DNA of 48,884 nucleotides from Flavobacteriaceae bacterium (GTDB lineage: Bacteria; Bacteroidota; Bacteroidia; Flavobacteriales; Flavobacteriaceae): contig JAFMLQ010000013.1 of assembly GCA_017852075.1 (NCBI GenBank), positions 1 through 48,884 of the forward strand. Direction: 5' to 3'. Numbering within the stretch: position 1 is the stretch's first letter; each line of letters opens with the position of its first letter. Positions 2,170 through 6,026 of the stretch are shown here, piece by piece. Under the pieces are notes generated by a model that saw nothing but the letters and a program-made list of their open reading frames with translations, ran no database searches and was not told where the DNA came from. Made by a program: the position numbers and the translations under genes.

Positions 2170-3567
2170 TTATAAATAGCCTAAAAGGGTTAAAAAATTA
2201 GCAGCAGTTTGTTGGGCTGCAAAGAGCTTGTGGGTCAACTGACCTTCCGCATCCCGATCGATCAAAATATGTTTGGGTTGCGGAATCAAACAATGTTGTA
2301 AGCCTCCAAAACCCCCTATGGATTCTTGATAGGCTCCGGTGTTAAAAAATCCGATATACAGTGGTTTTTTTTCGTCAAAATAGGGTAAGTGAATGGCATT
2401 GAGGTGCTGCTCACTATTGTAATAATCGTCACTATCACAGGTTAAACCACCTAATAGAACACGTTCGTATTCATCATTCCACCTATTGACTGATAGCATG
2501 ACAAAACGTTTGTTGATTGCCCAGGTGTCTGGCATGGTAGTGATGAATGAGGAGTTTATCAAGTTCCACTTTTCCCGGTCATTTTGTTGCTTTTGATACA
2601 AGACTTCAAAAATAGCACCCCCACTTTCACCCACAGTAAAACTTCCAAATTCGGTATAAATATCGGGAACTTCTACTTTTGATTCATGACAAGCAAGTTG
2701 GATCTGACCTATAATTTCATGAGCCATATAGGCATAATCATATTCAAAACCCAATGAATTTTTAATAGGAAAACCTCCGCCAATATTTAAGCTGTTCAGA
2801 CTTGGACAGATTTTTTTAAGATTTACATAAACCCGCATACATTTGAGTAATTCATTCCAATAATAGGACTGATCTTGAATGCCTGTATTGATAAAAAAGT
2901 GCAACATGGTCAATTGTACTTTCTTGTTTTTTTGAAGATGTTTTTTGTAATAAGGAATAATATTCTTGTAACCAATACCCAAACGAGAGGTGTAAAACTC
3001 AAACTTAGGCTCTTCTTCAGAGGCAATTCGAATGCCGATATCAAAAGGGTTTGTGATCGATTCAGTAAGTAAATTGATCTCTTCATAGTTGTCTATAATG
3101 GGGACGCAGTTTTTAAATCCATTATTCATCAGCCGACTAATGTTTTCAATGTATTGCGCCCGCTTAAATCCATTACAAATCACCTTAGTGTGCGGATGAA
3201 TTTTCCCTTGCATTAAAAGATTTTCAATAATATTGATGTCAAAGGCGGAAGAAGTTTCTATATGGATATCATTTTCGAGTGCACGGTCTAGTACAAACTT
3301 GAAATGAGAACTTTTTGTGCAATAACAGTAATTGTATTTACCCTTGTATTGGTGGTCTTTTATGGCATCGCCAAACCATTTTTTTGCCTTTTGAATGTTT
3401 TCAGAAATTTTAGGCAAGTAGGTAAATTTTAGTGGACCTCCATAGGTGTCCACCAAATCCATAAGGTCAATACCGTGAAACTCGAGTTGATGTTTTTGAT
3501 TCAATTTAAATTCCTCTTGCGGGAAATCGAAATTTTGTTCGATTAAATCGATGTATTTTGTTTTCAT
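2170..3567 (-). CDS. speA: Biosynthetic arginine decarboxylase, PLP-dependent (short flavobacterial form)
   Basis: The 465-residue protein is a fold-III (alanine-racemase/ODC-type) PLP decarboxylase that converts arginine to agmatine, the first step of the polyamine route encoded downstream. K85 in YCTKSSH is the expected PLP-binding lysine, IGGGFPI is the phosphate-binding glycine loop, and CDSDD near residue 380 is the catalytic cysteine segment. It is much shorter than the roughly 650-residue E. coli SpeA and matches the compact form seen in this phylum. It is first in the operon and is preceded by a 290-base intergenic region with strong RNA structure. Meso-diaminopimelate or another amino acid as substrate is less likely given the adjacent agmatinase. 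Confidence 0.88.
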   Translation of the reverse strand: MKTKYIDLIEQNFDFPQEEFKLNQKHQLEFHGIDLMDLVDTYGGPLKFTYLPKISENIQKAKKWFGDAIKDHQYKGKYNYCYCTKSSHFKFVLDRALENDIHIETSSAFDINIIENLLMQGKIHPHTKVICNGFKRAQYIENISRLMNNGFKNCVPIIDNYEEINLLTESITNPFDIGIRIASEEEPKFEFYTSRLGIGYKNIIPYYKKHLQKNKKVQLTMLHFFINTGIQDQSYYWNELLKCMRVYVNLKKICPSLNSLNIGGGFPIKNSLGFEYDYAYMAHEIIGQIQLACHESKVEVPDIYTEFGSFTVGESGGAIFEVLYQKQQNDREKWNLINSSFITTMPDTWAINKRFVMLSVNRWNDEYERVLLGGLTCDSDDYYNSEQHLNAIHLPYFDEKKPLYIGFFNTGAYQESIGGFGGLQHCLIPQPKHILIDRDAEGQLTHKLFAAQQTAANFLTLLGYL

Positions 3568-3691
3568 TATCTAGAATATGAGTGATTAAAAAAGCGATTA
3601 AGGGCCTTATAATCATTCAAATTCGAATAATAAACCGAGGAAAAAAGTTAAGTGAAATTTTCTCCCAAAACTGAGGGAGCCAATGAATTCG

Positions 3692-3759
3692 AGAAGCCAG
3701 CCGTAGAGCTCGGATCCTTAATCCTAAGGCAGCTAGGTGGACAGGCTTCTTTCGTCCAC
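3692..3759 (-). promoter_or_regulatory. Possible pseudoknotted RNA leader upstream of the polyamine operon
   Basis: Read on the minus strand, GUGGAC (3759-3754) pairs with GUCCAC (3742-3737) to close an 11-base loop. Seven loop bases AGAAGCC (3750-3744) pair perfectly with GGCUUCU (3698-3692), giving an H-type pseudoknot. The connecting stretch has its own hairpin, CCUUA/UAAGG with a GGAU loop (3729-3716), enclosed by an AGCU/AGCU pairing (3734-3731 with 3710-3707). The element sits 125-190 bases ahead of the arginine decarboxylase start. It matches no riboswitch class I can name. It could also lie in the 3' untranslated end of the DUF5916 transcript. Confidence 0.4.
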
Positions 3760-3857
3760 TTCGCCCGAACTTAAAAAATTCATTCACTGCGTAATGTCAA
3801 AACGTTTGTTGAGACGTTAAGCGAAATTAGTATTTTTTTTAAAACAAGTATATTTTT

Positions 3858-6026
3858 TTATAAATCAAATAAATATTGAAATTTCATGTACAATTGGCTA
3901 TTTTCAATACTGTACTGGTTTCTTTCATCGATTCTAGAATACCCATTGGTTCCCCCGATATAAAAAATGGTAAAAGGATTGGGATTCCATTTGAGCAAGG
4001 GTTGTAAGAAAAAAGCCTTGTCAAAATCATTAAACTCCCCGATAAGGCGAAAGGAAAAGTTCGGATTGAATTGGTAATTAATCGTGGAACGTGCAATATA
4101 GCCTGAAAAGTAAAGGCTCCCGTCTTCTTTGTTTTTCAATTGCGAGTACCTCAGGGAAGGACTAATTCTAAGTTTGGGTGTAATCTGGAAGTTATTAAAA
4201 GTTCCGATAAAAAAATTGTTCCCTACGGCGGGATTATCAGAATCGTAGCGCAAGGCTTCCCCAACTCGACTAAAAACTCCGAGCCGAACTGCCTCTGAAG
4301 GATTGTAGGAAGTAAAGACACTAAATTCTGGCATATTTTCTCCAATAAAACCTTCAAACTCCTCATTAATGACATAATTATAACTGATTTCACTTTCAAT
4401 ATTTCCACTTAATTGGATGTACATTGCACTTCCAAAATCTAAATATTTCCTTAAGTTGTCGTAATTAAAATTGATTTCACTTCCCAAATAAACCCCCAAC
4501 TGTTTGACAAAATTCTCCTTGTCAAAAAAGTGCTGATACCCGTGAAAGACATCGAAGAAACGAACACTGTTTTGGGTCACAAAACCCAGAGGTGTTTGGT
4601 AATGCGGAGAATATTGTTCGTATTCAATTTCTGTATTCCAATCTTTGGTATTGCGTTGTAATGAAAAATACAGGGCGTCACCATTCAGTTTTTCACCGTC
4701 TAATTGGGTGTTTTTATCGCGAATGCGATCTGTTTCCTCAATCCAATCTTGAGTGGGTTCTAGGAGAATACTTTTATTGAACTCGAAACTCGCAGTATAA
4801 GATTTTTTAAACCAATAACGTCCGTCCACACCAAAAGTATGCCCATAGCCTCTAGACTTAAAAATACGATTGGTGGTTAAAAAACCAATATTATTTCCTT
4901 CGTCATAGGTGCGTTGATATCTGAAAATATTAGAAAAAGATGCAGTCCCTTCGCCAAAATAGGATCGGTTTTCACCTGCAATTAAATAGGGTGAGGCTTC
5001 ATCATAAGCAGTCAGCCAGTAAAACCGTTGGTTTTCCCCCTGACTGATCAATTTAGTTGAAAGAAGGGGTTTATTAATGGAACGGGTGTAAACGGTGTTT
5101 AAACTTGTTTCAATGATGTCATTACCTTCATTGAAGTACGGACGTCGCTCTTGAAAGAAAATCGCAAAGGTATTGTTGGCTGTGATTTGGGAAACATCCG
5201 CTTCTACCTGTGAAAAGTCAGGATTTATGGCATATTCCAAAGAGGTAATATTGTTCAGATCAAACAAACCGCTCAATCCCACGGTGCCCTTGGGATTTCC
5301 ATAAACTAAGCTTCCCTCTGGAGCAGTTCCTTCCAAACCTCCATAAGCATAGGGCAATAAGTTTACTCGATTTTTAGATTTGATATTTTTTAAAGTAATC
5401 TCTGTAGGAGTTTGACAAGGGAGGCTAGGATTGTTTAAATCTATAGGGAAATTGATGTTTTGACTACGGTTGTTTTCTGTAAATGTAGAACGGTAAAGTA
5501 AAATTTTCCATTTCAATTCTGGAGCTTGTTTGAATTGCAATACACCAAAGGGAATTTTTAGTTCCACGTGGTAACTGTCGTTGTGTTTGCTAGCTTTGGA
5601 GTCAAAATTGACATCATAAGAAATGTCATCTTGACCTGTAGAAAGTAATTTTAGATCTAGTTGATTTCCTTCCGGGTTGGCACCCAAACTGACCATATAG
5701 CGTCCATCTCCGTAAGTGTCAATTCCAATTAAAACATTGTCGTCTCTAAAGCCTTCATCTCGGTTACGCACTGAAGAGCGCAAATTGGTCATATCGGCAT
5801 ATGCAATAAATCCAACATATAAATCCGTTTCGGAATAGGTAATAAACACTTCAGTCAAATGAGGGGAGGGGATATTGTTTCCTGGATCAATTTCATAATT
5901 GATTTTAAAAGTTTCTGCCCCTTCCCATTCTTCGGGACTTACTATTCCATCGAATTCTGGTAGTACTTTTTGGGCTTGAATAAATAGAGGAAAAAGGAGT
6001 AATAGGTAAATAAGGGGTTTATACAT
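3858..6026 (-). CDS. DUF5916 protein with N-terminal CBM9-like domain, exported, probable outer-membrane barrel
   Basis: The 722-residue protein starts with a signal peptide ending near residue 18 (LFIQAQ). Residues 20-210 resemble the family 9 carbohydrate-binding-like domain that precedes DUF5916. From about residue 230 onward it is DUF5916, recognised by the segment around 270-305 (NPDFSQVEAD, then FFQERRPYFNEG) and by alternating aromatic beta-strands ending in an aromatic C-terminus, as in outer-membrane barrels. The function of the family is unknown. It is a single gene between gltD and the polyamine operon, and it does not share an obvious pathway with either. Confidence 0.88.
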   Translation of the reverse strand: MYKPLIYLLLLFPLFIQAQKVLPEFDGIVSPEEWEGAETFKINYEIDPGNNIPSPHLTEVFITYSETDLYVGFIAYADMTNLRSSVRNRDEGFRDDNVLIGIDTYGDGRYMVSLGANPEGNQLDLKLLSTGQDDISYDVNFDSKASKHNDSYHVELKIPFGVLQFKQAPELKWKILLYRSTFTENNRSQNINFPIDLNNPSLPCQTPTEITLKNIKSKNRVNLLPYAYGGLEGTAPEGSLVYGNPKGTVGLSGLFDLNNITSLEYAINPDFSQVEADVSQITANNTFAIFFQERRPYFNEGNDIIETSLNTVYTRSINKPLLSTKLISQGENQRFYWLTAYDEASPYLIAGENRSYFGEGTASFSNIFRYQRTYDEGNNIGFLTTNRIFKSRGYGHTFGVDGRYWFKKSYTASFEFNKSILLEPTQDWIEETDRIRDKNTQLDGEKLNGDALYFSLQRNTKDWNTEIEYEQYSPHYQTPLGFVTQNSVRFFDVFHGYQHFFDKENFVKQLGVYLGSEINFNYDNLRKYLDFGSAMYIQLSGNIESEISYNYVINEEFEGFIGENMPEFSVFTSYNPSEAVRLGVFSRVGEALRYDSDNPAVGNNFFIGTFNNFQITPKLRISPSLRYSQLKNKEDGSLYFSGYIARSTINYQFNPNFSFRLIGEFNDFDKAFFLQPLLKWNPNPFTIFYIGGTNGYSRIDERNQYSIENSQLYMKFQYLFDL

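Follow-up and report, generated by a model that had tools for sequence, protein, structure and literature searches.

A pseudoknotted RNA inside a short conserved reading frame upstream of arginine decarboxylase genes in Flavobacteriaceae, a putative arrest-peptide leader

Small H-type pseudoknots are found in the leaders of metabolic operons, as in the preQ1-II and SAM-II riboswitches. Other leaders act through the peptide that they encode, as do TnaC and SpeFL, in which the nascent chain together with a small molecule blocks the release factor at the stop codon. TnaC, the tryptophanase leader peptide of Escherichia coli, has Arg as its penultimate residue and UGA as its stop codon; it blocks RF2, and the parked ribosome masks the RNA directly downstream (PMC8429421). 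SpeFL is a sensor of L-ornithine that arrests at termination, in this case with RF1 (PMC8429421). Translation of the speF leader opens an inhibitory RNA structure (PMC6386406).

Here, we analyzed a stretch of 48,884 nucleotides from a Flavobacteriaceae genome (GCA_017852075.1, contig JAFMLQ010000013.1), hereafter the window. On its minus strand, a leader ORF is followed by speA, an agmatinase gene, and a deoxyhypusine/homospermidine synthase-like gene. The speA gene (2170-3567) encodes an arginine decarboxylase of 465 aa that matches PF02784, and its best NCBIfam matches are to biosynthetic arginine decarboxylase, scoring under the curated cut-off. The agmatinase (1287-2165) matches TIGR01230 over the cut-off, with 225.9 bits. 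The synthase-like protein (268-1245) matches PF01916 with 144.2 bits, and its NCBIfam matches are all under their cut-offs. We propose that the leader ORF encodes an arrest peptide that would gate speA through a hairpin after its stop codon, with a pseudoknot inside the ORF tuning leader translation. Judging from sequence comparison, we give this reading a probability of roughly 0.6.

The pseudoknotted RNA element lies at 3692-3769 on the minus strand, within codons 7-32 of the leader ORF. An earlier note on this DNA had described an H-type pseudoknot at 3692-3759 on the strand of the arginine decarboxylase transcript: a 6-pair stem closes a loop of 11 bases, seven of these bases pair with sequence further downstream, and the connector holds a small hairpin. 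All these parts are present, and the element is indeed on the minus strand, as speA is. The stem belongs to helix S1 (5' arm 3754-3764, partner 3732-3742), which has six contiguous pairs (3754-3759 with 3737-3742, GTGGAC/GTCCAC) and two outer pairs. The loop arm AGAAGCC (3744-3750) pairs with GGCTTCT (3692-3698) as the pseudoknot helix S2, and the connector hairpin S3 (3716-3729) pairs CCTTA with TAAGG (3725-3729 with 3716-3720). The pseudoknot is conserved and extends beyond these parts. Both hairpins are enclosed by a further helix, S0 (5' arm TTCGG at 3765-3769, partner CCGAG at 3709-3713), and neither this helix nor the ORF around the element appeared in the earlier description. In the gap-free alignment, the first paired base of S0 is at +19 of the leader ORF. 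In S3 the window pairs one base off the common register, so only three of its six pairs form in the fixed register. The folding energy of the window element was like that of shuffles (z 0.04; 91 of 200 shuffles equally stable), a test that is uninformative here because the folding program is unable to form pseudoknots.

We took eighty loci with speA relatives as the comparison set and tested the structure on a gap-free alignment of the pseudoknot region with 47 non-redundant sequences. Standard pairs occupied 87.8% of the pair cells, changes on both sides were seen in 20 of the 27 pairs, and 0 of 500 shuffles matched the alignment on any of five measures. When the partner was slid by 1-3 columns, pairing went down to 29-53%. 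In these 47 sequences, 99.1% of the cells were paired in S0, 89.8% in S1, 90.3% in S2, and 72.3% in S3 in its fixed register, with two-sided changes in nine of nine pairs of S1, four of seven of S2, and six of six of S3. One parsimony reconstruction on a tree of 65 speA proteins gave 3, 25, 7, and 17 compensatory events for S0, S1, S2, and S3, compared with 1, 9, 2, and 14 for the best slid versions. The helix least certain in register is S3, given its 17 events against 14 when slid by +1. Some unpaired bases were nearly invariant as well (A25, T71, G75, C76, and T77 of the alignment). RNAalifold, run on the alignment, returned S2 as the sole helix.

We also applied a protein-aware null to 62 of the 65 sequences, in which codons were either redrawn from speA usage with the protein kept or permuted within column and residue. 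The observed pairing of S0, S1, S2, and S3 (.994,.903,.903, and.731) was higher than in all 500 draws of each kind, with values of.825,.528,.440, and.530 for redrawn codons and.984,.883,.868, and.706 for permuted ones. Thus, the pairing is above what the protein requires. On the covariation seen across relatives, the pseudoknot is real and conserved.

For its distribution, a covariance model built without the pseudoknot helix was run on 149 family genomes, about one per genus. It matched in 68 of them, at 70 places, and speA was present in 99 of the 149 (E<=1e-60). At 66 of the 70 places the RNA was on the same strand as speA and 117-264 nt upstream of it. In the order sample, 18 of 395 genomes matched: 17 belong to the family, and the remaining one, outside it, has a weak match of 41 bases. 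The phylum sample had matches in 6 of 395, all in the family and one of them weak (E 0.034). Both samples overlap the family sample, and the stricter filters used there lose weak matches. These matches tie the conserved pseudoknotted RNA to the speA operon. Winogradskyella and Dokdonia are examples of lineages that have the pseudoknot. The earlier note would have given up its RNA element if covariation, or conservation upstream of orthologous genes, had been lacking; both are clearly present.

Four places departed from this arrangement. In one genome (G060) the RNA stands before two other genes and then speA, and in another (G098) the match spans 43 bases and is probably due to chance. A third (G019, locus L134) has the RNA in a genome where the search at E<=1e-60 did not find speA. 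The fourth (G108, locus L136) is a second RNA copy before a small protein, in which the RNA is kept and the reading frame is broken. At L134 (contig C7), the RNA precedes a small protein that in another locus, L137, follows the polyamine synthase gene, an arrangement that looks as if the polyamine enzyme genes had been lost. L137 itself (G501, contig C3:46000-59000) has a second copy of the RNA and leader (C3:50076-50162, minus strand) that ends in IPVRI-stop and precedes a small secreted-looking protein without Pfam or NCBIfam family. By eye, the protein after the second copy of G108 resembles this one.

The leader ORF of the window (3617-3787, minus strand) has 56 codons, a GTG start (3785-3787), a TGA stop (3617-3619), and the C-terminus FIIRI. 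It contains the whole pseudoknot in its N-terminal half and ends 49 nt before speA. We collected 66 leaders, from 65 loci and the window, 64 found by script and two placed by hand. The start codon was at one aligned position in 64 of the 64 script-found leaders. TTG was the start in 41 of the 66, ATG in 18, and GTG in 7, and the 62 leaders with the pseudoknot were 54-60 aa long. The last residue was Ile in 39 leaders, Val in 25, and Leu in 2, and the penultimate one was Arg in 31, Gln in 20, and another in 15; Arg is therefore not strictly needed. The stop codon was TGA in 56 leaders, TAA in 5, and TAG in 5, against TAA in 53, TGA in 6, and TAG in 6 of the 65 speA genes at the same loci; among other long ORFs of these loci, 3 of 133 had TGA. 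Leaders mostly end in [RQ]-[IV]-UGA. Comparison of these loci shows a short same-strand ORF upstream of the gene with conserved start and stop, as arrest leaders have. The leader peptides matched no family in Pfam (two scanned) or NCBIfam (three scanned). The leader of the window is a divergent member, with Pro at -7 instead of the -9 of most tested relatives, and its own group was left out of the codon tests.

Over the pseudoknot, differences at the three codon positions were nearly equal (.291/.297/.340). Towards the end of the ORF they were uneven:.323/.258/.545 when 33 sequences were compared over the last 18 codons, and.263/.249/.552 when 20 were compared over the last nine. No such three-base period was present in the 45 nt flanking the ORF on either side. 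Phe -11, Pro -9, and Thr -7 were kept in both tested groups and their third bases vary. This codon pattern indicates that the C-terminus is under coding selection in the relatives tested, where amino-acid conservation is concentrated at the C-terminal residues and the stop codon, as in arrest leaders. Synonymous recodings of the C-terminal half of the ORF are less stably folded than the natural sequences (mean z -1.42, 62 leaders), so this half is under the influence of RNA structure as well.

We then looked at the peptide end outside the RNA-bearing set. The motif searched was an ORF of at least 18 codons ending in [RQ][IVL]-stop, 30-215 nt upstream of speA, with 20 shuffles; it was derived from the RNA-bearing set and not from the genomes without the RNA. 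It was present in 52 of 78 loci of the RNA set, compared with one on the reverse strand and a shuffle mean of 2.5. Among 30 speA genomes without an adjacent RNA match, 15 had the motif (reverse strand 0; shuffle mean 0.9, maximum 2) and 15 did not. In the genus g128, which we take to be Flavobacterium, 31 of 31 readable loci end in N[IL]RV, 30 of them with TGA, and the covariance model had no match at the leader in any of 32 loci. The N-termini are largely unrelated between species, and the last 10 residues and UGA are kept. Across 28 g128 leaders, the final 11 codons differed by.194/.144/.496 at the three positions, the 11 codons before them by.549/.46/.623, and codons still closer to the start by.585-.706. 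With synonymous recodings as the null, these 28 leaders were more stably folded over their first 50 codons (mean z -1.36). A search for a helix common to g128 leaders brought out a single candidate, a possible AAACT/AGTTT pairing that spans the final codons and might equally account for the GTT that never varies ahead of the stop. Leader length in this genus is 59 aa in 22 of the 28 (among L204-L233, L175, and L178) despite the unrelated N-termini.

Two Arenibacter leaders had the fewest pairs of the 65, with 17 and 16 of 27, and keep the C-terminus; against the covariance model, one scored 25.8 bits and the other had no match. Since the peptide end is kept where the RNA was not found, the C-terminus and UGA appear to be the widely kept core, and we infer that the pseudoknot is an addition in part of the family. 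The leader was absent from the one sampled genus-mate of the window (G137), and no such leader was found in the Gramella/Christiangramia/Salegentibacter relatives (L034, L051, L054, L065, L068, and L079). In the last ~70 nt before speA, L034, L065, L068, and L079 share, by eye, an AT-rich block, ATTAATTTACCAGTCGATT, then TTGACC and TAATTTTTAG, which is perhaps a different promoter or operator. At the class level, we read the upstream regions of the best-scoring 28 of 174 speA genomes. The motif was in 3 of these 28, two of them g128, that is, in 1 of 24 outside the family; over all 28, shuffles gave 1.1 and the reverse strand 1, so the motif is no commoner there than by chance.

Directly after the leader stop, a hairpin (TGATTA...TAATCA, 3583-3615, minus strand) ends 15 nt before the speA start. 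The spacer of the window folded better than its shuffles (z -2.46, p 0.03). The leader-speA spacers of relatives did so on average, with mean z of -1.24 (58 spacers, window included), -1.42 (14), and -2.14 (28, g128), with p<=0.05 in 19 of 58, 5 of 14, and 13 of 28, or 37 of 100 in all; the hairpins are weak and AT-rich. Medians for the three sets put the first paired base at +3, +5, and +3 after the stop and leave 16, 9.5, and 13.5 nt between the end of the fold and the speA ATG, which keeps the start codon itself outside the hairpin. An AT-rich hairpin after the stop thus tends to occur across relatives, as far as predicted folding can tell.

Upstream of the leader, a possible -7 promoter element of the Bacteroidetes type, TAATTTCG (3822-3832, minus strand), has one mismatch to the consensus TAnnTTTG. 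By eye, TACATTTG/TATGTTTG boxes are at a similar place in relatives. A 722-aa ORF (3858-6026, minus strand) lies 5' of the leader and ends ~25 nt before the possible promoter box. A small inverted repeat, AACGT/ACGTT (3801-3818, minus strand), was seen by eye upstream of the leader start codon, and some relatives have hairpins of different sequence near this position. In many g128 loci (L204-L233), the TACATTTG box ends, by eye, ~5 nt before the leader ATG, so this leader may be read from a nearly leaderless mRNA. A sigma-70 scan detected neither a terminator nor, on the minus strand, any promoter ahead of the leader. It gave one weak minus-strand site inside the leader (3656-3627), which may be a second promoter for speA.

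The proposed course of events, from leader translation and stalling to the ligand, the direction of control, and the role of the pseudoknot, is one that we infer. The transcript would start upstream of the ~55-codon leader ORF, and the leader would act as a cis-acting translational control of speA. Its N-terminal half would be shaped by selection for the pseudoknotted RNA, whose first pair at +19 would be met by a ribosome on the usually weak TTG or GTG start. Its C-terminus would be a nascent-chain arrest sequence, with a pathway metabolite in the exit tunnel slowing RF2 at UGA; by analogy, arginine or agmatine is our guess for this ligand. Given the geometry of ribosome footprints, a ribosome with UGA in the A-site would cover the 5' arm of a hairpin that begins ~3 nt after the stop. 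The parked ribosome would block the hairpin, and speA would be translated, or transcription would continue. Without the stall, the hairpin would form and speA would stay low. The pseudoknot would determine the frequency with which ribosomes load at, or move past, the start codon, a step on which polyamines could act.

Ligand sensing by a compact pseudoknot was the reading of the earlier note. What stands of it is a conserved pseudoknotted RNA tied to speA, and sensing by this RNA is possible, if unproven. As the whole story, sensing by the RNA is not supported: the element makes up the N-terminal half of a conserved ORF, whose C-terminus and UGA are kept also where the RNA was not found. In a riboswitch proper, the pseudoknot would itself, as an aptamer, bind arginine, agmatine, putrescine, or a longer polyamine and control the operon as RNA, with the ORF as by-product or read-out. 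The leader of this metabolic gene does carry a conserved, covarying RNA structure, and such an aptamer would fit the compact pseudoknot with strong covariation and nearly invariant unpaired bases, its place upstream of speA in 66 of 70 matches, and the second copy of G108 (L136) that keeps the RNA though the frame is broken. We nevertheless hold it to be improbable. The start, the length, and the C-terminus of the ORF are conserved, the latter under coding selection; g128 and half of the other tested genomes keep the peptide end without a model match; the Arenibacter leaders keep it with 17 and 16 of 27 pairs; and the RNA is 117-264 nt away from speA. Both signals would be used by a two-input leader, in which a pseudoknot aptamer, giving polyamine feedback on leader loading, sits inside the coding sequence of an arginine- or agmatine-dependent arrest peptide. 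The arrest peptide would then be an old feature of the speA operons of the family and the pseudoknot a lineage-specific addition; we regard this version as rather unlikely. A possible, if somewhat unlikely, role for the pseudoknot is to act without a ligand, either as a roadblock to translation or by helping initiation at a weak start codon; this role is compatible with the arrest model. The first pair at +19 agrees with it, as do the non-ATG starts in 48 of 62 pseudoknot leaders versus 3 of 28 in g128 (Fisher p 3.4e-9; the sequences are related, the starts are unverified, and ATG was favored by the script that chose the g128 starts). The nearly invariant unpaired bases speak against a mere roadblock, since they could mean a tertiary core or binding site, but codon constraint could also explain them. 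We think that the pseudoknot gates leader translation.

Two further readings concern the peptide. In classical attenuation, as with orf34 of Salmonella speF, slow Arg codons at low charged tRNA-Arg would shift RNA folding. Of the 56 codons of the window leader, 8 encode Arg, and orf34 uses two consecutive Arg codons (PMC6386406). However, the leader alignment shows no conserved stretch of Arg codons, the Arg at -2 is spelt AGG, AGA, or CGN and replaced by Gln in 20 of 66 leaders, and near the end Pro, Phe, Thr, Asn, Ile, and Val are as conserved as Arg, which makes this reading quite improbable to us. The leader could also encode an antizyme-like small protein that regulates the decarboxylase in trans, and a conserved short protein adjoining a gene of its pathway, with a length that hardly varies (54-60 aa in the 62 pseudoknot leaders; 59 aa in 22 of the 28 g128 leaders), would suit this. 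Yet many species of one genus share the last 10 residues and UGA but have N-termini with little relation to each other, and a trans-acting protein would not conserve the identity of the stop codon; we consider this reading highly improbable. The arrest-peptide leader, with a pseudoknot that tunes its translation, remains our preferred reading. Besides these, we dropped programmed -1 frameshifting at the T-run that precedes the pseudoknot (TTTTTTA in the window), because relatives without the run keep the frame and start position, and stop readthrough into speA, because the distance from the leader stop to speA varies without keeping the frame.

The earlier note had also stated that the pseudoknot fits no known class, and this agrees with our search of 4227 Rfam models, where two tRNAs were the only matches in the window at gathering score. 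At E<=10 over 3560-3870, two chance matches fell far under their gathering scores, neither of them over the pseudoknot. We know of no metabolite-linked arrest leader for arginine decarboxylase in Bacteroidota, and a literature search, with most subscription papers beyond its reach, returned no report of such a leader. If our reading is true, it would add one in this phylum, show a single short ORF selected both for a pseudoknot and for a signal carried by the nascent chain, and provide a simple polyamine-synthesis switch for Flavobacterium. Moreover, an ORF that conserves its C-terminus and stop codon but lets its N-terminus vary is easy to overlook, and a test of C-terminal motif and stop-codon bias could be applied to other operons.

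Compared with known systems, the preQ1-II and SAM-II riboswitches share with this locus, in their general topology, a small pseudoknot in the leader of a metabolic operon. They differ in that here the element is inside a conserved ORF, has an outer helix round both hairpins, and has no Rfam match. To our knowledge, TnaC has no pseudoknot in its ORF, and orf34, by its name, has 34 codons and is shorter than the present leader. TnaC resembles our leader as a short ORF directly upstream with a penultimate Arg and a UGA stop, at which our leader would arrest as TnaC does, and differs in its 24 residues, its ligand tryptophan, a Rho site instead of a hairpin, and Pro as the last residue (PMC8429421). 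SpeFL/orf34 of gamma-proteobacteria is likewise a leader peptide for a polyamine-forming decarboxylase, ornithine decarboxylase. It belongs to another phylum and another gene, speF, and acts with RF1 (PMC8429421), versus the RF2 proposed here. By analogy, the leader would work like TnaC and SpeFL, a likeness of kind with no claim of common descent. We file the stop-codon arrest leader under a known kind and the embedded pseudoknot as the new part.
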